64,000 nucleotides of DNA from Caecibacteroides pullorum (GTDB lineage Bacteria > Bacteroidota > Bacteroidia > Bacteroidales > Bacteroidaceae): assembly GCF_019239235.1 (NCBI RefSeq), contig NZ_JAAZTS010000012.1, forward strand, positions 1 to 64,000, given 5' to 3'. The stretch's first letter is position 1. Every line of letters begins with the position of its first letter. This document shows, in pieces, positions 19,069 through 30,282 of the stretch. The notes beneath the pieces are model-generated. The model searched no databases. It was not told the DNA's origin and was given only the letters and a program-made list of their open reading frames with translations. The translations under genes were made by a program, and so were the position numbers.

Positions 19069-19108
19069 AAACCGCTGATAATCAATCATTATCAGCGGTT
19101 TTTCTTTT
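19069..19108 (+). terminator. Terminator of tRNA-Lys, overlapping the 3' end of a convergent gene
   Basis: A perfect 14-bp stem (19069-19082 with 19088-19101), a 5-base loop and a following T-rich tract. The last codons and stop of the convergent small membrane protein gene (stop at 19082-19084) lie within the hairpin. Confidence 0.85.
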
Positions 19109-19543
19109 TATCCATACCGCAAATTGAAGCAGAATACCGCATCTTACTGGAGGTGAAATAGGTGGACTTAATTTCCACATAAAAACAAGTCCACCTGATT
19201 GGATTATATTCCAAGGTGCTCTGCCACTGACATCCGCTACCGGACATACAGGAAGTACACTGGCACAAGCAAAAATAATGGTATATAAAGGAATAAGCCA
19301 TAAAGGCAAATCAATACCAGATTGAGTGTCTCCTGAAGTTTGTAGCAGAGAAAGGTAAAAAATAGTCTCAAATTGTGCCTGAGTATGGGTATGTTCAGTG
19401 TTATAAGGGTGAGAGTGCACCACAACAACCCCATTCACCACATGGGAATGGGTGAACAGTGTTATGCCGCACCAGTAAAGAGCGAACAGAATCAAAAGAG
19501 AGATTCCTGCTATTCTATTTCTTTTCAACCTGTTTACAAACAT
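19082..19543 (-). CDS. Small His-rich membrane protein at the end of the heme locus
   Basis: A 153-residue protein with no function I recognise. An N-terminal membrane helix (about 12-32) is followed by a histidine-rich stretch (THSHVVNG, VVHSHPYN, TEHTHT; residues about 31-56) and a second hydrophobic segment near 82-100 containing CASVLPVCPV. The His cluster and Cys pair suggest metal or heme contact, which is inference. Proline-rich residues near 125-133 precede a basic tail. A separate promoter lies upstream, so it may be expressed apart from the PepSY gene 102 bases away. Confidence 0.7.
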   Translation of the reverse strand: MFVNRLKRNRIAGISLLILFALYWCGITLFTHSHVVNGVVVVHSHPYNTEHTHTQAQFETIFYLSLLQTSGDTQSGIDLPLWLIPLYTIIFACASVLPVCPVADVSGRAPWNIIQSGGLVFMWKLSPPISPPVRCGILLQFAVWIKRKTADND

Positions 19544-19568: not shown

Positions 19569-19599
19569 CAAATGTAGATATGTTCATTAAAAAAAGCAA
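19569..19599 (-). promoter_or_regulatory. Promoter of the His-rich small membrane protein
   Basis: On the minus strand TTG (19597-19599), a 20-base spacer and TACATTTG (19569-19576) match the consensus well. Confidence 0.5.
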
Positions 19600-19645
19600 T
19601 ACCTATTTTATAGTAAAAAGATTAAATGAGTTCTTATTACCTATA

Positions 19646-22918: not shown

Positions 22919-23629
22919 TTATTTTAGTTCGTCGCAGTAATAACTGATTCTTCCTCCTTCGTCACCTATCTCCACATTGGCATCATACCAGCTGATAATC
23001 TGTATTTTGAAGTAACGCTGTCCGTCTGCCGTACGCACTACGTATGTGTGGAAAGACGGAGTATATACAGGAGGAGGTCCGGCAAACGTCATCGCCTCTG
23101 CCAGCAACGGATTGGCATTGGTCTTTGTCCTTTGTGGTCCGTTGTTCGGGTCGAACCAGGGATTAGAATCAAAATCCAGCCCGTTCTCCACTAGGTAATG
23201 GTTCCAGTCGTTCTGCGACATGGTCACACTGACCTCACCATTATCGACCACCCATTCCAAATCCGACGGTAACTGTGAAACGCTTGTCCACTTATTGTAT
23301 TCGCCATATCCCAAGTCGGCAGCACCTCCACGGCCTATGCCACTGGTACCGCTGTTTGTTCTCAACACGTAGCCACAAAAAGCCAAGTCCCAATCCGTGC
23401 GGCCGTACTGTTCGCCTTCCTTGATGTCCTTGTTCACCCCATAGGCATTGAACATTTCGCCGGTACGCAGGTTAAAATAAATCCAGTCATTCGTCACACC
23501 GGTGGAATAACCCGACTTGCGAGGCAGTGTCTTTCCGTTGAAAGGCTGTATGTCGTCATAGTCCACACAAGCGGTCATCGTCAGACACCCCAACAGAAAA
23601 ACCATTATTTTCAATTTCAAACCTTTCAT
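22919..23629 (-). CDS. hmuY: HmuY-family heme-binding lipoprotein
   Basis: A 236-residue lipoprotein (lipobox CLTMTAC). It fits the HmuY family, surface hemophores of Bacteroidales: YFNLRTGE near residue 52, the TDWDLAFCGYVLRTNSGTS segment near 78-96 and the C-terminal YVVRTADGQRYFKIQIISWY near 195-214. Met/His pairs that ligate heme vary between homologues and I do not assign them. The start overlaps the receptor gene by four bases (ATGA), the usual receptor-hemophore pairing though in the reverse order from P. gingivalis hmuYR. Confidence 0.87.
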   Translation of the reverse strand: MKGLKLKIMVFLLGCLTMTACVDYDDIQPFNGKTLPRKSGYSTGVTNDWIYFNLRTGEMFNAYGVNKDIKEGEQYGRTDWDLAFCGYVLRTNSGTSGIGRGGAADLGYGEYNKWTSVSQLPSDLEWVVDNGEVSVTMSQNDWNHYLVENGLDFDSNPWFDPNNGPQRTKTNANPLLAEAMTFAGPPPVYTPSFHTYVVRTADGQRYFKIQIISWYDANVEIGDEGGRISYYCDELK

Positions 23630-25986
23630 TTCCTTTTCTTTAAAGAGTTAATCACATCATCAAGCATAAATTCCATCTGTACCCATCCGCGGGTTCCGGC
23701 TGTAGCCGGAACATTGAACATCGTAATCCCAGAACCCAGTGTTTTCGGCACATAGTTGAACAGATTGTCCACACCAAGAGTCAGCTTCACCTTGTTCCAG
23801 AAAGTCTGCGATACGGAGAGGTTGCACAGTACATATTGCGGAAGGTCGCAACGGAAATAGGCATCATAGCTCTTGTTGTCCTCTTCCACGAATACGCGAT
23901 CCTGCACATCGAACTTCTTGCTTCCCATATACGATGCACTGAACACAGCATTCAGACGATAATTCTTCCGTGCATATTTATAATCCAGACTTGCAGTAGC
24001 AGCGTGTGGAGATGTGGTATTTACCTGTATGCCCTCGTTCTTGCTCACATTGACATAACTGTAAGTTCCGTTAAGGGTCATACAATCCAATACCCTCCAG
24101 CGTAACAAAGCTTCAATACCCAACAGACGCTGCTTGCTCAGATTGGTATATTCAAAATTGTACTGCATGTCATAAATACGCCACACTCCCTCAATCTTGT
24201 CGCGGAAATAGTTGCCGTATGCCGTACCTGACACGAACAGGCGGTCGTTCGAATATTCTGCACCGAGCGAAAAGTAATTGTTCTTCTCCGGCTGCATGTT
24301 CTCATTACCGCGAATCATGAACATTCCCAAATGGTCCCAGTTGAAGAAAAGTTCCTTAATACTGGGAGAACGGTAACCCATTGAATAGTTGGCGCGGATA
24401 GCCCACTGCTCATTGGGTGAATATTTTGCAGCCACTTTAGGCATAGCCATGAAACCGAACGCACGCGAGAAGTTAGTGCGCACTCCGGCAGACACCATCC
24501 ATTGGGGATTGATGGTCCATTCGTCCTGCAAGAAATATTCCGTCTCTTTCAGGGCGCGGGTTTTCAGGTCATGGTTGGCATTGCCCGAAAAACGGTCGCT
24601 GGTCAATTCGTCAGAAGTGTGTTCGATGCCGAATATCAGACTGTGGCCGTCGAAGTAGTCGCTCGTCACGGTCAGACGGGGTTGCCAGATGCTGCTCTCA
24701 TAGTCCTTATTACGGGTATCGATGCGCTCATGGCGCTTGTATCGGTTATAGAAATCCCCGTGCAGGCTTCCGGTCACGCTGAACCAGTCTTTCATATGGT
24801 AAGTCACCTTGGCCCCGGCGTTCCATTCGTTCGCCTGACTGAACGTCATGTCCTGTATCAGGTCGTACGTGTTCATGAAGAAGCCTCCTCCATATACCAA
24901 AACTGACAAATCTTTTATCGGATCGTAATAGACTTTCTGTGACATCGTGATGTGCTCCTTGCCTTCGATACCCATTGGCGGGCGGGCTGCGGTGCTGACC
25001 ACCGTGATGTCATGGGGAAGGAAAGGGTTGGCCTCCTGCGTATAGACTTTCTTGTCGTTCTCCGCCTGATACATATAGAATGCGTCGGTGGAGCTGTACC
25101 ACACATCGGTCTGCGAGGTCACTTTGCCCGTATTGAAGCCGGCTGACACCCAGCCTTGCAGGTTGGGGCGGTCGGCATTCTGCTCGAACATATACAGGAA
25201 GTCGCTTGGCTGCGGATTCTTGTAGTTGCGCTCGTTCATCTGTCCATAACGCACTCCGGCGTCTATCGACAACGGTTTGGAGGTCTTTTTGGTTATCAGG
25301 TTGATGACAGCTCCAGCCGCACGGCTTCCGTAGAGGGTGGAGCTTGCACCTTTCACTATCTCGATGCGGTCTATGGCATGAAGGTTGAAACGTTCATAGT
25401 CCAGGTTGCCCGCCATGTCGCCCGTCATACGTTCGCCGTCCATCAGGAACAACACGTGCCGGGCATCCAGTCCCTGCATGGAGATTTCGTTTCCGAAGCC
25501 CACTTTCTGTATATTCAGTCCCGGAGTTTCCTGCTGGAGAGCCTGCTGCAGATTGGCGTATCCGGCATCCACTAATTGTTTACCCCCCAATACCTGCGTG
25601 GTTATGGGGGACAGTTTGATGGGGCGTGCCGCACGCGAACCCGTCACGACTACTTCGTTCAGCCCCAGTGCATCATCTTTCATATATACGGTCTTCACCG
25701 TTTCGGTTTTATCTATTTTCCCTGTTTCCGGTACAAAGCTGACGTATGTCACCTTATAGTACCAACTACCTTTCCCTGCAAGCTTCAGCACTGTCTGTCC
25801 GTCCACGTCCGTGATGGTGTGCATGGCGTTCCTCAGTTCCGGATTGTCGGCATAGGCCACATTAGCGGCTATGACCGGCTGTTCCGTCCCTTTCTCCAGC
25901 ACCGTCAGCCTGACGCTCCGCTGGGCTGCCGCATCCGTACAGACGCATAGCGCCAACAGCAGGATGAAGGTTGTAATCTGTTTCAT
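23626..25986 (-). CDS. hmuR: HmuR-like TonB-dependent heme receptor
   Basis: A 786-residue outer-membrane receptor. A signal peptide (to TDAAAQ) and a carboxypeptidase-like domain (about 25-108) lead into a plug (about 112-235) with VVVTGSRAARP, TPGLNIQKVGFGNEISMQGLD and a TLYGSRAAGAVINLIT segment. In the barrel, GYRSPSIKELF corresponds to the FRAP box of heme receptors, and GNENMQPEKN to the NPNL box. Both are the conserved region that binds heme or its partner. Adjacent HmuY supports heme as ligand. The siderophore-type alternative is less likely. Confidence 0.88.
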   Translation of the reverse strand: MKQITTFILLLALCVCTDAAAQRSVRLTVLEKGTEQPVIAANVAYADNPELRNAMHTITDVDGQTVLKLAGKGSWYYKVTYVSFVPETGKIDKTETVKTVYMKDDALGLNEVVVTGSRAARPIKLSPITTQVLGGKQLVDAGYANLQQALQQETPGLNIQKVGFGNEISMQGLDARHVLFLMDGERMTGDMAGNLDYERFNLHAIDRIEIVKGASSTLYGSRAAGAVINLITKKTSKPLSIDAGVRYGQMNERNYKNPQPSDFLYMFEQNADRPNLQGWVSAGFNTGKVTSQTDVWYSSTDAFYMYQAENDKKVYTQEANPFLPHDITVVSTAARPPMGIEGKEHITMSQKVYYDPIKDLSVLVYGGGFFMNTYDLIQDMTFSQANEWNAGAKVTYHMKDWFSVTGSLHGDFYNRYKRHERIDTRNKDYESSIWQPRLTVTSDYFDGHSLIFGIEHTSDELTSDRFSGNANHDLKTRALKETEYFLQDEWTINPQWMVSAGVRTNFSRAFGFMAMPKVAAKYSPNEQWAIRANYSMGYRSPSIKELFFNWDHLGMFMIRGNENMQPEKNNYFSLGAEYSNDRLFVSGTAYGNYFRDKIEGVWRIYDMQYNFEYTNLSKQRLLGIEALLRWRVLDCMTLNGTYSYVNVSKNEGIQVNTTSPHAATASLDYKYARKNYRLNAVFSASYMGSKKFDVQDRVFVEEDNKSYDAYFRCDLPQYVLCNLSVSQTFWNKVKLTLGVDNLFNYVPKTLGSGITMFNVPATAGTRGWVQMEFMLDDVINSLKKRK

Positions 25987-26022: not shown

Positions 26023-26655
26023 TCAATTCTTACCCTGTTCTTTCTTTGCTTCTTCCAGGTCTTTCTCATACTGCGAAAATTCTTCTTCAAAGCGGTCAAT
26101 GCGGGTCTTGTCAATAGTTTGCAGGAAAGTTTCGGTACGTACGTTCATCATGTTGTAGTCCACGATGAACTCCATCTGGTTAGTGTTCACATTCAGGAAA
26201 CCGTCCACACGGGCGCCACTACCTTGTTGGTTGTCCGCAGCGTCATCGCCACTGGTGGTGACATTCCCGTCCGTGCCTACGAACTTCACCCAGCCGTCGT
26301 CGGGATATTCGTCCTGTTCCCAACTGTTAAGGTTCATAAACTGCGTTGCGCATCGAAAGGTGATGGCAAATGGCATGGCACCTACGGTGAAGTCGCTCAG
26401 GTCAAGCACCATCATCCCGTCTTCCCGCCATGAGAAGTTGAATTTGGTTGGGCAACCGCTCTCCAATAGAGTCTTGTCCACGCCGTTCATAGTGGCTTTG
26501 GTAGAGAGTACGATGTCGCCGTTGAGGATTTCCTTTGCCTTATCAATATATTCCTGTGCAGGTGGCTCATTGGTAAGTGAATCGTCACTTTCACACGAAC
26601 TTAATCCGATTACTGTTGCCATAAGAAGGCTGAATAAAAAGTATAACTTTTTCAT
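26023..26655 (-). CDS. DUF4903-like lipoprotein of the heme locus
   Basis: A 210-residue lipoprotein (signal MKKLYFLFSLL, lipobox GLSSC). The start is the Met preceding the signal peptide, 17 codons inside the longest reading frame. The middle is a beta-rich domain (about 45-170) and the C-terminus (about 180-210) is a charged helix (FEEEFSQYEKDLEEAKKE). The combination resembles DUF4903 proteins found with heme genes, a family assignment I hold moderately. It lies 36 bases before hmuR. Confidence 0.68.
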   Translation of the reverse strand: MKKLYFLFSLLMATVIGLSSCESDDSLTNEPPAQEYIDKAKEILNGDIVLSTKATMNGVDKTLLESGCPTKFNFSWREDGMMVLDLSDFTVGAMPFAITFRCATQFMNLNSWEQDEYPDDGWVKFVGTDGNVTTSGDDAADNQQGSGARVDGFLNVNTNQMEFIVDYNMMNVRTETFLQTIDKTRIDRFEEEFSQYEKDLEEAKKEQGKN

Positions 26656-27066
26656 TTTGCTTATATAATTTACTTGTTTTGTAATCCATAATTGTTTCCT
26701 GTTCATTACCCTTGCCTGCGTGTATTCCGCAAAGGGTATGTAAAGTCATGGCTTTTCCATGATTAAAGGCAGGCTTTTTCCGATGGCAAAGTCTGTCTTT
26801 GCTGTGTACCGCATGTAGGCCTCAGAAGCGGTTCAGGCGGTTTGGATAATTTTGTTTCCTCGCCGTCGGTTGCATACCGGGAGTGTTTTTAGCGACATAG
26901 CAGCCTTGCCGACAGGATAATGGTGTCTTCCCCATTGGGTGAGGTGAATATATTGTGATAATTTTTTCTTAGTAACACACAAAAAAGAGCTAAGAGAAAG
27001 CCGTTTGACAACTTTCTCCTTACTCTTTCTGAATTTAATTTCGTAGCTTGACAAAATAATGACGAA
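26656..27066. other. 411-base intergenic region within the heme gene cluster
   Basis: No convincing gene is present. It contains a terminator at the right, two inverted repeats (TACCCTT/AAGGGTA at 26707-26738; TCATGG/CCATGA at 26746-26762) and a weak promoter-like TACCCTTTG on the minus strand at 26730-26738. This suggests that hmuR-hmuY and downstream genes may have a separate promoter from the LRR and calycin genes. Confidence 0.5.
26981..27028 (-). terminator. Terminator after the calycin-like gene
   Basis: On the minus strand AAAGAGTAAGGAGAAAG pairs with CTTTCTCTTAGCTCTTT (two bulges, 11-base loop) and is followed by six T. It would attenuate transcription before the hmuR part of the locus. 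Confidence 0.65.
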
Positions 27067-27558
27067 TTATTTTGTTCCAACAAAGTGTACGGATGCAGGG
27101 AAATCTGCACCTAAGAACTTACCGGATACTGCCAGAGTAAACTCGATAGTGTTGCCTGTAACTTTGGCATCAGTCAAAGAATCCAGGTACAATTTTATCG
27201 GCAGCATGTTTAAGATTTTCAAAGTCCCGGCTTGATCGCCTTCATTTGCTGTAATTTCACCGGTTTCTTCATCTACTTCTACTTCCAACTCGATAGTGAT
27301 ATTTCCCGGCATACTTCCGATTTGCGGAAAATCGCAAGTTAAAAGACCTCCTTCAAGAGTATAAGAGGCTGTACGCGGTTCATAATCTTCTCCTCTCATT
27401 TTGATTTGATCCATTGTACCGTTATAAGTACCTTCGTAATCGCTGATTGCCAATACGGTACTTACACCATCCACATCCATCACTGTGGCAGCGTCAGCAG
27501 ACTGCGCCATTCCGAAACTTGCTGCAACAAGGGTAGCTCCTAAGAAAAATTTTCGCAT
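27067..27558 (-). CDS. Secreted calycin-like protein
   Basis: A 163-residue protein with a signal peptide (to QSADA) and no lipobox. The mature part is one beta-barrel-like domain with alternating short strands (YEGTYNGTMDQIKM, ITIELEVEVDEETGEI), fitting the calycin/lipocalin-like domain of Bacteroidetes. Calycins bind small hydrophobic ligands, so periplasmic heme handling is plausible but unproven. It starts 43 bases after the LRR lipoprotein gene and is followed by a terminator. Confidence 0.7.
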   Translation of the reverse strand: MRKFFLGATLVAASFGMAQSADAATVMDVDGVSTVLAISDYEGTYNGTMDQIKMRGEDYEPRTASYTLEGGLLTCDFPQIGSMPGNITIELEVEVDEETGEITANEGDQAGTLKILNMLPIKLYLDSLTDAKVTGNTIEFTLAVSGKFLGADFPASVHFVGTK

Positions 27559-27601: not shown

Positions 27602-29026
27602 TTATTGATTTTTCAATAAAGTCCTCCAACGGCATCCTTCATCATACATCAAAGAAGAACTGTAACCTAACCTTCTAACTTTATCGGATGAATCGATATC
27701 GGTATAGTTTGCTTTTAAGAATGCTTGAGTCGATTCTCTATAGAAAGTGCTTTCTGAACAGGCAAAAGTAGTACCGGCACGTCCATCTTCATTATAGAAA
27801 ATGGTCAGTTCCGGATAGACCAGATTAAAGTCATTATTCAAATCACCAATAGCTATGTTAGATAGCATTTTGACATTCGACATGTCGAATGTTTCCAATG
27901 CGTCCAGGCTTTCGATGTCAATGGTGTTAACTTTCAATTCATCCTTTTCGGGCAATTTGATTTCTTTCAGTGCAGGACATCCAAGAACCATCAGATTACT
28001 GCCATACGTTTCATTACTTTCCGTCTCTTTATCTCGTTGTCCCCAAATAGTAGAATAGCTCAAATCTAATTTCTGCAAACCCGGGATATTCTGAATCCAT
28101 ACATTTACTAAATTAGTAGCATTGGATAAATCGATAGCTTCCACTTCTACATTTTGCAGGATGATTTGAGTAATGGATTTCCCTACTTTTACGTTAGGCA
28201 TAGAAGCTACATTTTCTACTTCAGCGGCGTAAAGACCGAATTTAGAGCCTTCCCAAGAGAGACTTCCTATCAAATATTGAATACCTTCAAAGTTGGAAAC
28301 ATTATCAGTAGGAGAAACAAGTAACTCCTTTGTTTTTTGGTCGAGTCCCAAGCGTTTGTTAAGGTCTATTTGGTCGCCGTTAAACAAATCGGAGAAGTCA
28401 GTCTTCAAACGGACGAGCAGGTTTGCGTCGGGCACGTCGCGCAGGGTGGTATAGGTTTGCAGATTGCCATCGACATCAGTCATCTTCATATCAATGGTGC
28501 CGGCGGTGATGGCTTCCTTGTTTTGGCGGTAGAAACGCACGAGATCTTCGATATTCTCTTTAGCGGTTTCCGGAAGGTAAAGTTTGGTAATTTCGTGCAG
28601 GTTAGTCACAGTTTCATCGCCGTTTTCTTCCACTACGACACTCACAAGATTATCATAGTCGTAGATTTCATTACCCGTCAGGTCTATGCCGGTGATTTGT
28701 TCCGGTAATTTGGCAAAGTCGAACGCCGGGCCGTAACCATTGTCCGACAGATCCACATCAGTCAAGTTAGGGAACATGGAAAGTTCTGCCAGTGCGTCTG
28801 TGGAAATCTGTGTCCCAGAGAGATCAAGCGTAGTTGTATTATTAGCCAAATCGTCAAGCAACAATTTTCCGTTTGCGTCAAACTGGTAGCCTTTTTGTAC
28901 CAGAATGTCCTTCAGTGCTGTGTTCTCAATAGGGTTAGTGCTGTACGTAAATCCTTCTTCTTCGCTACATGAAACAAATCCCAGAGTTGTAGCAAGTCCT
29001 AAGCATAAAATTAAAGTCTTTCTCAT
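27602..29026 (-). CDS. Leucine-rich repeat lipoprotein, first gene of the heme locus
   Basis: A 474-residue lipoprotein (lipobox GFVSC). Residues about 60-120 contain LRR units (TTTLDLSGTQIS, LTDVDLSDNGY, ITGIDLTGNEI). A helical insert at about 140-230 follows, then more LRR-like units (VEAIDLSNATNL, LQKLDLSYSTIW, LKEIKLPE, LETFDMSNVKML) to about 385, and a C-terminal non-repeat part. Probably surface-exposed; similar LRR proteins sit at the head of Bacteroidetes heme loci, and it could bind a hemoprotein (inference). Its promoter lies next to a palindrome shared with the flavodoxin side. Confidence 0.75.
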   Translation of the reverse strand: MRKTLILCLGLATTLGFVSCSEEEGFTYSTNPIENTALKDILVQKGYQFDANGKLLLDDLANNTTTLDLSGTQISTDALAELSMFPNLTDVDLSDNGYGPAFDFAKLPEQITGIDLTGNEIYDYDNLVSVVVEENGDETVTNLHEITKLYLPETAKENIEDLVRFYRQNKEAITAGTIDMKMTDVDGNLQTYTTLRDVPDANLLVRLKTDFSDLFNGDQIDLNKRLGLDQKTKELLVSPTDNVSNFEGIQYLIGSLSWEGSKFGLYAAEVENVASMPNVKVGKSITQIILQNVEVEAIDLSNATNLVNVWIQNIPGLQKLDLSYSTIWGQRDKETESNETYGSNLMVLGCPALKEIKLPEKDELKVNTIDIESLDALETFDMSNVKMLSNIAIGDLNNDFNLVYPELTIFYNEDGRAGTTFACSESTFYRESTQAFLKANYTDIDSSDKVRRLGYSSSLMYDEGCRWRTLLKNQ

Positions 29027-29061
29027 CTTTATTTATATAATTAAGTTTTTTAGAATCGGCG

Positions 29062-29092
29062 CAAAAGTAAAACCTTTACTTATAACATACAA
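29062..29092 (-). promoter_or_regulatory. Promoter of the heme locus
   Basis: On the minus strand TTG (29090-29092), a 20-base spacer and TACTTTTG (29062-29069) match consensus. The leader is about 30 bases. The -33 edge touches the operator-like palindrome at 29092-29109. Confidence 0.65.
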
Positions 29093-29109
29093 TACCTATT
29101 TTTTGGTAT
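29092..29109. promoter_or_regulatory. Operator-like palindrome, heme-side copy
   Basis: ATACC-N8-GGTAT, with core CCTA-N4-TTGG. It abuts the -33 region of the heme-locus promoter and resembles the perfect palindrome at 29233-29249 and the copy at 29311-29327. Confidence 0.55.
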
Positions 29110-29232
29110 TTATTAACATCGTTAATCCTAATAAATGAGGATTGCAAACTTTAAAATCAGCCAATTTTAACGGTTTTTCAAAAACTTCAAACAACCTATC
29201 CAATAACAAACGTTAAAGATCGTTTTACTCAT

Positions 29233-29249
29233 ATACCTATATTAGGTAT
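29233..29249. promoter_or_regulatory. Operator-like perfect palindrome, central copy
   Basis: ATACCTA-TAT-TAGGTAT is a perfect 7-3-7 palindrome in the middle of the divergent intergenic region, about 125-130 bases from one copy and about 60-65 bases from the other. It is a candidate binding site for an iron- or heme-responsive dimeric regulator; the regulator is not in the window. Confidence 0.6.
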
Positions 29250-29310
29250 TGCCATCTTAGATAAAAAAATACTATTATGCTCATCAGGGCCAATACGATA
29301 ATAGCAAAAA

Positions 29311-29327
29311 GCCCTATTTTTAGGTAT
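29311..29327. promoter_or_regulatory. Operator-like palindrome, flavodoxin-side copy
   Basis: The core CCTA-N4-TAGG followed by TAT ends exactly where the flavodoxin -33 element begins. The left half-site is degenerate (GCCCTA). Confidence 0.5.
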
Positions 29328-29357
29328 TTCAAAAAAGAAAAAGACGGTATATTTTTG
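29327..29357 (+). promoter_or_regulatory. Promoter of the flavodoxin gene
   Basis: TTTC (29327-29330), a 19-base spacer and TATTTTTG (29350-29357). The leader is about 25 bases. Confidence 0.65.
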
Positions 29358-29385
29358 CACCGTAAACAATTAAAATATTTACTTC

Positions 29386-29892
29386 ATGAAAAAGATTGGT
29401 ATATTTTACGGTTCCTCCACCGGAACCTGCGAAAGCCTGGCTGAACAACTGGCCGGCGAACTGGGAGTGACAGGCGGCGACGTGCACAGCGCGGACAAGC
29501 TGACTGCCGAATTGGCAAATACCTACGACGTGCTGGTACTGGGAACCTCCACCTGGGGCGACGGAGAACTGCAGGACGACTGGTATGATGCCATCAAGGT
29601 GCTGAAAGGCATGGACCTGCATGGCAAGGACGTGGCCCTGTTCGGCTGCGGCGATTCGGAGTCCTACTGCGACACCTTCTGCGACGGTATGGGTATCCTC
29701 TACGAAGATCTGAAGGACACGGGATGCACCTTCCTAGGCAACCGCGTCAGCACGGACGGCTATTCATTCGGCAGTTCCATCGCCGTGGTGGACGGATGCT
29801 TCGTGGGTCTCGCGCTGGACGATGTGAACGAAAGTGGCAAGACCGCCAGCCGCATCAGTGCCTGGGCTGCCGACCTGAAGAAGTGCTTCTGA
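29386..29892 (+). CDS. fldA: Flavodoxin
   Basis: A 168-residue long-chain flavodoxin, an FMN electron carrier that replaces ferredoxin when iron is scarce. The phosphate-binding loop is FYGSSTGTCES (residues 7-17), the isoalloxazine-contacting 50s loop GTSTWGDGELQDDW and the 90s loop FGCGDSESYCDTF. Length and loops are complete. It is divergent from the heme locus and shares its palindromic intergenic region, in line with common iron-linked control. DUF2023 follows after 27 bases. Confidence 0.95.
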   Translation: MKKIGIFYGSSTGTCESLAEQLAGELGVTGGDVHSADKLTAELANTYDVLVLGTSTWGDGELQDDWYDAIKVLKGMDLHGKDVALFGCGDSESYCDTFCDGMGILYEDLKDTGCTFLGNRVSTDGYSFGSSIAVVDGCFVGLALDDVNESGKTASRISAWAADLKKCF

Positions 29893-29919: not shown

Positions 29920-30282
29920 ATGGACATGATATCATCCCCCGACATCCTCCCGGCAGACCTGAAGGTGTTTCTGAACCACGTGTACGAGTATAAGAAAGGT
30001 GTGCGCCGCATGGTGCTCTATACAGTCAACCGCAAGTATGAAGCCTTTGCTACAGCCCGTCTAAAGAGCCAGCACATAGATTTTCTCGTACAGCCAGCTT
30101 CGGACACGAGCATCAATCTGTTCTTCGGCCGTCCTGAGTGCATTCGGGCTATCCGTTTTCTGGCAGACAGACCGCTCAATCTGCTTTCGCCCGAAGAAGA
30201 CTTCATTCTGGGAGCGATGCTGGGGTATGACATCTGTGCGCAGTGCGAACGTTACTGTAAACGAAAGAAAGCCTCCTGCTAA
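29920..30282 (+). CDS. DUF2023 family protein
   Basis: A 120-residue cytoplasmic protein of the DUF2023 family, which typically follows flavodoxin in Bacteroidales. Visible segments are FLNHVYEYKKGVRRMVLYTV (near 18-37), a central PECIRAIRFLADRPLNLLSPEEDFILGAMLGYD split over the second half, and a C-terminal ICAQCERYCKRKKASC with four cysteines, which could bind a metal. Function is unknown; the tight pairing suggests a partner or regulator of flavodoxin. The start ATG at 29920 is followed by another in-frame Met at residue 3. Confidence 0.85.
   Translation: MDMISSPDILPADLKVFLNHVYEYKKGVRRMVLYTVNRKYEAFATARLKSQHIDFLVQPASDTSINLFFGRPECIRAIRFLADRPLNLLSPEEDFILGAMLGYDICAQCERYCKRKKASC

Follow-up and report, generated by a model that had tools for sequence, protein, structure and literature searches.

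The closest described systems are the PG1236-CdhR (PG1237) pair of P. gingivalis and the BT0519-BT0520 pair of B. thetaiotaomicron, in which a hemerythrin gene is followed by the gene of a response-regulator-type DNA-binding protein (PMC10434189; all papers are cited here from the parts of their texts that were accessible). The pair is fused in Prevotella intermedia, is induced by low iron and is reported to regulate hmuYR (PMC10434189, PMC10101095). CdhR has been called an activator of hmu (PMC10101095), pg1237 has been called a repressor (PMC2671838), and mfa1 and luxS are described as repressed by CdhR (PMC4082711). According to PMC10434189 the regulation of the iron response in these gut bacteria is scarcely known, CdhR regulates hmuYR by a mechanism that is unclear, and iron binding is yet to be shown. 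The accessible text of PMC10434189 contains neither the word 'motif' nor 'binding site', and for CdhR no binding motif, no geometry of its promoters and no genome-wide list of targets was found in the accessible parts of PMC10434189 and PMC10101095 or in the open-licence literature searched. The same literature search returned neither the operator nor the promoter rule described below.

Operators of the NarL/FixJ type consist of inverted heptamers in a 7-2-7 arrangement, the heptamer consensus of NarL being TACYYMT, and class II activators occupy a position overlapping the -35/-33 region of their promoters. FBXL5 is a eukaryotic iron sensor of the hemerythrin type. BRUTUS is likewise described as a hemerythrin-type iron sensor controlling iron uptake (PMC12022348). 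The system described here shares with FBXL5 and BRUTUS a hemerythrin-type di-iron domain in control of iron uptake; these act through ubiquitin ligases, whereas a bacterial transcription factor is proposed here.

The window, that is, the whole stretch of 64,000 nucleotides (64 kb) analysed, contains an intergenic region (29027-29385) with the heme locus on one side (minus strand) and fldA and a DUF2023 gene on the other (plus strand). The flavodoxin gene fldA (29386..29892, plus strand; PF00258, E 1.5e-24) is followed downstream by the gene of the DUF2023 protein (29920..30282, plus strand; PF09633, E 1.9e-44). The heme locus, all on the minus strand, starts with a leucine-rich-repeat (LRR) lipoprotein gene (27602..29026), whose homologue in B. 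fragilis shares its promoter class, and includes genes for a small protein that gave no match in the Pfam search (27067..27558), a DUF4903 protein (26023..26706; PF16246, E 1.4e-92), a HmuR-like TonB-dependent receptor (23626..25986; PF00593 and PF07715) and the heme-binding protein HmuY (22919..23629; PF14064, E 1.3e-29).

Three palindromes had been claimed for this intergenic region in a preliminary description, and re-reading of the sequence confirmed them. ATACC-N8-GGTAT (29092-29109) and the perfect palindrome ATACCTATATTAGGTAT (29233-29249) lie exactly where they had been placed, while CCTA-N4-TAGGTAT is present but extends from 29313 to 29327 and does not begin at 29311. The outer sites reach into the -33 elements of two oppositely directed -33/-7 promoters, which is the mirror arrangement that had been claimed. 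A 22-bp matrix from which the window was left out gave 22.5, 13.9 and 26.7 bits at 29090, 29123 and 29308, respectively. The first of these is operator H1 of the heme-locus promoter, AAATACCAAAAAATAGGTATTG (29090..29111, minus strand), and the last is operator F1 of the flavodoxin promoter, AAAGCCCTATTTTTAGGTATTT (29308..29329, plus strand), which is conserved in fldA loci. Operator H2, TAATCCTAATAAATGAGGATTG (29123..29144), is a fourth site, absent from the preliminary description, and forms a tandem with H1, 33 bp upstream of it. The -7 element of the heme-locus promoter, TACTTTTG (29062..29069, minus strand), was recognised from the sequence and from a match to the composite pattern TRGGKATT-N21-TANNTTTG (29098-29062, minus strand), its TTTG being placed exactly 46 nt from where the operator starts; the -7 element of the flavodoxin promoter, TATTTTTG (29350..29357, plus strand), was recognised from the sequence, the fldA alignment and a composite match. 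With the same matrix no position in the rest of the 64-kb window reached 9 bits, and 200 first-order Markov windows yielded 0.085 matches of at least 13.5 bits per window and none of at least 20 bits.

The middle palindrome (29233-29249) is a 7-1-7 variant with a centre 1 bp shorter and was missed by the 22-bp matrix. A read of the sequence on both sides of it found no TTTG at the usual spacing, and since a -7 element at the usual distance is thus absent on either side, it is regarded as an auxiliary site of uncertain use. Its 17-mer occurs only once in the genome at 0-1 mismatch, and with 3 mismatches allowed it was rarer than its control (121 vs 262). Near its position, a 7-2-7-like site whose centre has the usual length is seen in several close relatives.

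Upstream regions of fldA were aligned from at least 80 flavodoxin loci of Bacteroidaceae and relatives. The alignment yielded as its unit a 22-bp even palindrome, AAATCCCTA-N4-TRGGKATTT, which can equally be read as the inverted heptamers TACCTAT and ATAGGTA set 2 bp apart (7-2-7; consensus of 74 rows); the likeness to NarL/FixJ operators lies in these two inverted TACCTAT heptamers around 2 bp. Among the matches listed, the site was aligned by a simple rule in 73 of 80 flavodoxin loci and also in the window, the loci failing the rule being L046 (upstream region cut), L053, L069, L081, L083, L094 and L095. With a matrix built from 74 rows, a site of at least 8 bits was found upstream of fldA in all 79 loci with upstream DNA among the matches listed, a count in which L053, L069, L081, L083, L094 and L095 are the independent loci; in L069 the site lies farther upstream, at -160. 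Alignment across species, which had been proposed as a check, therefore upheld the conservation of the palindrome. Tandem sites 31-33 bp upstream, a spacing of approximately three helical turns, were seen 10 times upstream of fldA in the flavodoxin loci among the matches listed and once at the heme side of the window.

The spacing between operator and promoter was determined in the palindrome-pattern loci. Sites were located there with the matrix, which does not extend to the -7 element, and each was scored for the Bacteroides -7 sequence TTTG. This sequence stood exactly 46 nt from the site start in 50 of 66 distinct sites above 16 bits. After removal of the fldA loci it was found at +46 in 44 of 59 sites above 16 bits (15 had none there), while other offsets had a mean of 0.8 and a maximum of 3, counts in which sites from related genomes are not independent. 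Among the matches listed, 67 of 74 flavodoxin rows had their first TTTG at this same distance and in the other seven an earlier TTTG precedes it; the heme promoter of the window has the same 46-nt spacing. If transcription starts a few bases past TTTG, the operator centre would lie near -44 and overlap the -33 element. A single fixed place overlapping -33 is the mark of an activator, since a repressor could sit anywhere over the promoter, and the operators occupied one fixed place over the -35/-33 region, as class II activators do, in the 44 of 59 sites that have TTTG at +46. A sigma-70 promoter scan was unsuited to this phylum.

In the fldA alignment conservation is highest in the half-site that touches -33, and TTTG lies at one distance from it, as would be seen if the sites were nothing else than an extended form of the -33/-7 core promoter and had no regulator of their own. 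The far half-site, which a core promoter does not need, is conserved too, tandem copies occur 31-33 bp upstream, and many of the targets are iron genes, so that a core promoter by itself is an extremely improbable explanation.

The composite pattern was matched 6 times in the genome of the window (control 0), 9 times in B. fragilis (control 1), 9 times in P. vulgatus (control 0), 4 times in B. xylanisolvens (control 0) and 6 times in B. nordii (control 1), while B. heparinolyticus gave 1 match against 2 for the control. In 101 family genomes there were 219 matches against 12 for the control, and 80 genomes had a match; one of these 80, G074, appears to be B. heparinolyticus again, with the same place and the same sequence. 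Some composite matches, such as B. xylanisolvens 2130451 and P. vulgatus 4528279, have no palindrome and are probably due to chance. The B. fragilis homologues of the LRR lipoprotein (36% identity) and of the TonB receptor (39%) each have a composite match and a palindrome, of 18.8 and 19.9 bits, and since both lie outside the fetched fldA locus, the conservation of the heme-side site does not depend on the flavodoxin side. A possible third promoter of this class in the window, TAGGTATT, 21 nt, TACATTTG (19569..19605, minus strand), was indicated by a composite match; its left half-site is weak and its palindrome reaches 2.4 bits. Behind this promoter and just past the heme locus, an ORF reading gave a histidine-rich ORF of 153 aa (19082..19543, minus strand), and ORFs resembling it follow composite matches in B. 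fragilis, B. nordii and B. xylanisolvens.

The palindrome pattern AATMCCTANNNNTAGGKATT with up to 1 mismatch occurred at 9 places in the genome of the window and at 0 for the reversed control, while with up to 3 mismatches the 38 places were not enriched over the control (49). Because the 3-mismatch counts are not above the control, the signal is confined to strong sites, and loose searches of this kind, with counts below the control, were of no use. In the 101 family genomes the pattern gave 113 matches against 9 for the control and was present in 53 genomes. A strict variant was searched in 296 phylum genomes and was present in 15, including 3 from the genus of the window; its control was present in 5. 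The motif search proposed earlier thus found enrichment over controls in the genome of the window and in the family, with many of the sites at iron genes.

Target names are a reading of translations except where Pfam was run. The sites of the genome of the window precede both window promoters and an operon of TetR, LCM methyltransferase and ABC genes. Another site precedes genes for an LCM methyltransferase, a TonB receptor, a DUF4374 protein and a PepSY protein, in that order, with enolase on the other side; we take this order to be the xusABC layout. Further targets are an operon of porin, imelysin and di-haem oxidoreductase genes, an M24 peptidase gene and, behind a site with two mismatches, the gene of a DUF362 ferredoxin-type protein; one site lies between a BlaI-like gene and a divergent RIC-LuxR operon, and one falls within an ORF. 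In other family genomes the genes behind the sites code for fldA, RIC, feoAB, a FeoB-associated Cys-rich protein, LCM methyltransferase, TonB receptors with small His-rich ORFs, porin, TetR, an HMA protein and enolase. In one batch of 29 family loci the site was inside an ORF in 5, and several others preceded genes without an evident iron link.

Genes up in low iron, compiled from P. gingivalis, P. intermedia or B. thetaiotaomicron, are hmu, fldA-DUF2023, TetR/ABC, SAM methyltransferase, xus, ahpC and hemerythrin-CdhR (PMC10434189), and many of the predicted targets agree with them. The claim that both window promoters share an iron-linked regulatory site is therefore strongly supported by the conservation at fldA, by the enrichment and by the match of the targets to this low-iron stimulon. 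The paired palindromes are real and conserved and belong to a low-iron promoter class that is widespread in the Bacteroides family.

Fur recognises a consensus of the GATAAT type with 7-1-7 spacing. The observation that the motif does not resemble the E. coli Fur box holds, the consensus here being AAATCCCTA-N4-TRGGKATTT and 7-1-7 spacing being confined to the middle palindrome. What the sites share with Fur boxes is a palindrome at iron-uptake promoters, while sequence, spacing and fixed position are different and feoAB has a motif of its own. A Fur-family repressor would nevertheless account for the sites if they were diverged Fur boxes at which iron-loaded Fur blocks both promoters. Three Fur-family genes are present in the genome, and the best-scoring of the three proteins has an unusual recognition helix, VSRATLYN, but no site above 13 bits was found in the stretches around these genes. 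PgFur is reported to bind the P. gingivalis hmu promoter and not the E. coli Fur box, and its mutant to make more HmuY (PMC6613475), while removal of iron from heme is reported to be Fur-independent (PMC6460266). The feoAB operon is reported to be Fur-dependent in B. fragilis (PMC5552952), and a 7-2-7-type site is found at feoAB in 3 of 24 genomes, B. fragilis not among these, and besides these 24 in the feoAB loci L119, L120 and L205, of other genera, but in 22 of 24 genomes (loci L232-L259; read from the sequences, one or two differences allowed) the feoAB promoters carry over the -33 region another conserved motif, TATTTAAAAACAWTCTAAATWATTTG, which is absent at feoAB of Barnesiella and Leyella. 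Because of the reported Fur dependence of feoAB, TATTTAAAAACAWTCTAAATWATTTG is the better candidate for the Bacteroides Fur box. Fur as binder of the 7-2-7 palindrome is weakened by this different motif and by the fixed spacing to the -7 element. Of the proposal of an iron or heme regulator that might be of the Fur family, the first part is retained; the heptamers, the -7 spacing and the feoAB motif argue against a Fur-family protein as the main binder, and we give blockage by Fur only a small chance.

The preferred candidate, a LuxR-type protein corresponding to CdhR, is encoded elsewhere in the genome (contig C44, 41608-42231) behind a hemerythrin (RIC) gene, the two ORFs overlapping by about a dozen bases, and a palindromic site precedes the hemerythrin gene. 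The correspondence to PG1236-CdhR and BT0519-BT0520 was judged by the order and the descriptions of the genes and not by comparison with P. gingivalis sequence. The protein matched PF00196 (GerE) with E 5.6e-18, and at E 1e-18 a match to it was found in 92 of 101 family genomes. In 52 of these 92 (counted by hand) the match comprised only the HTH, inside an ORF with a frame of 315-418 aa, and all 52 are RIC-LuxR fusions, with one ORF matched by both the RIC (E 1e-61 or better) and the LuxR profiles. Such frequent fusion ties the hemerythrin domain to this DNA-binding domain.

The pair is also linked to the promoter class by place. A RIC and/or LuxR gene was present in the fetched flank of 19 of 80 flavodoxin loci among the matches listed, and 17 of 18 RIC-bearing flavodoxin loci among the matches listed had a RIC promoter with a palindrome of at least 10 bits and TTTG at +46, with three start codons placed by hand. 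RIC was recognised in 22 of 30 LuxR loci, 18 of the 22 having a site above 15 bits within 300 nt. Upstream of the 52 fusions, a site scoring 12 bits or more was present within 300 nt in only 27 cases and a composite match in only 2. As judged from these promoter sequences, autoregulation appears clear for the split RIC/LuxR form and uncertain for the fused form. The hmu promoter of the window carries the element, as would be expected of a CdhR target, and the B. fragilis homologues of the LRR lipoprotein and HmuR carry it too.

The 92 genomes with a match to CdhR contain the composite pattern 218 times and the 9 genomes without one contain it once (control there: 2), a co-occurrence with p 8e-6 in a Fisher test and p 2e-5 in a Mann-Whitney test, both ignoring kinship. 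Four of the nine CdhR-less genomes are less than 90% complete and three are of one genus, and fldA at E 1e-20 was found in none of the nine, while 9 of 21 other chosen genomes have it. Since the CdhR-less genomes are few, partly incomplete, in three cases from one genus and all without fldA, the co-occurrence may reflect genome reduction, and given the fldA counts the co-occurrence with fldA alone is not decisive. Some other conserved regulator might bind the palindrome, the RIC-CdhR operon being only one of its targets: binding of CdhR to the motif was not found in the accessible literature, and TetR and BlaI-like genes also lie behind sites. TetR was matched in only 21 of 101 genomes, the search of the genome of the window gave no DtxR-type match above the cut-off, and the LuxR/hemerythrin pair tracks the promoter class and is tied to fldA and hmu by place and by the accessible literature, which leaves such a regulator no more than a slight chance. 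TetR was accordingly rejected as master regulator and is taken to be a target, and DtxR was rejected as well.

The two partner domains were compared with known proteins. The RIC protein matched Pfam Hemerythrin and has six invariant His/Glu residues (H89, H134, E138, H167, H211 and E215, own-protein numbering), the spacing of which we assume to be close to that of the YtfE ligands. A model from 15 sequences had a mean pLDDT of 83.7, and its top-ranking matches in a fold search were E. coli YtfE and S. aureus RIC, with a best E of 1.4e-4 and a TM of about 0.53; a sequence search of solved structures gave no match to RIC and a profile search only one weak match, to the unrelated Asp3 protein. 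A hemerythrin fold with His/Glu di-iron ligands was thus found, and metal binding is predicted. The likeness to RIC/YtfE/ScdA proteins consists in the top fold matches, the Pfam match and the six conserved residues, while the difference is that the domain is here joined to a DNA-binding domain, as a partner or by fusion, and belongs to an iron regulon. The HTH of the LuxR protein matched GerE and the solved structures of the NarL/FixJ regulators VraR, SsrB, FixJ and NarL (21 distinct sequences from solved structures matched the protein), and the recognition helix is invariant in 12 sequences. Unlike those regulators, the receiver domain here has no phospho-acceptor Asp, the residue at that position, as taken from the VraR alignment, being replaced in all 12 sequences (N in 11, S in one). 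Phosphorylation control would therefore be unlikely on the sequence, and because the acceptor is absent the hemerythrin partner is more likely to be the input.

The promoter class is most likely switched on by CdhR, the partner of a hemerythrin predicted to bind iron, and not switched off by Fur. In the mechanism that we propose, a dimer of a NarL/FixJ-type (LuxR-HTH) protein would bind the two inverted heptamers (TACCTAT-N2-ATAGGTA), centred near -44, with the inner half of the dimer overlapping the -33 element, and when iron is scarce it would recruit RNA polymerase to the TAnnTTTG -7 element. The protein is most likely CdhR from the C44 operon with the hemerythrin-fold RIC. The hemerythrin part with a filled di-iron site would keep CdhR inactive and the loss of iron would release it; the roles of binder and activator for CdhR and of iron sensor for the hemerythrin are inferred. 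The RIC-CdhR operon itself carries a promoter of this class, so that the response would amplify itself. We regard this explanation as a whole, a low-iron promoter class activated by CdhR, gated by hemerythrin and amplifying itself, as probable; what can be read from genome sequences is that the sites exist and are conserved, that their geometry is fixed, which genes make up the target set, and that hemerythrin and LuxR are linked and fused. In one species the regulator already has a name, while the motif, the geometry, the breadth and the model of hemerythrin-gated activation are new as far as we have seen. More tentatively, Bacteroidaceae and relatives may sense iron through a bacterial counterpart of FBXL5 and BRUTUS, in which a LuxR-type activator is under the direct control of a di-iron hemerythrin domain, be it a separate protein or part of a fusion. 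In that case heme, xenosiderophore and flavodoxin genes would respond to low iron mainly through hemerythrin-CdhR and not through Fur, whose role would be confined to feoAB. Such a promoter class would explain the joint rise of heme uptake and flavodoxin; with its operator and promoter rule defined and a hemerythrin-based sensor as candidate, the system can be tested directly, and the composite pattern allows low-iron genes to be predicted across the family.

Some further observations concern the genes behind the sites. Enolase, and once phosphoglycerate mutase, was found repeatedly (L195, L197, L200, L157, L216 and L221, contig C60 of the genome of the window, B. nordii L302 and P. vulgatus L315), which hints at a link between lower glycolysis and the low-iron response; the accessible text of PMC10434189 makes no mention of enolase. 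A BlaI-like gene is divergent from the hemerythrin-LuxR operon across one site in three genomes of the genus of the window (L196, L202 and L147). The paralogous LCM methyltransferase loci on contigs C12 and C60 of the genome of the window have an identical 22-bp operator. The TetR/LCM-methyltransferase operon (G000 C12/L143 and G041 C385/L223) adjoins recombinase-like genes, as read from translations, its TetR is 99% identical in another genus, and this iron-linked operon probably travels with its own operator.
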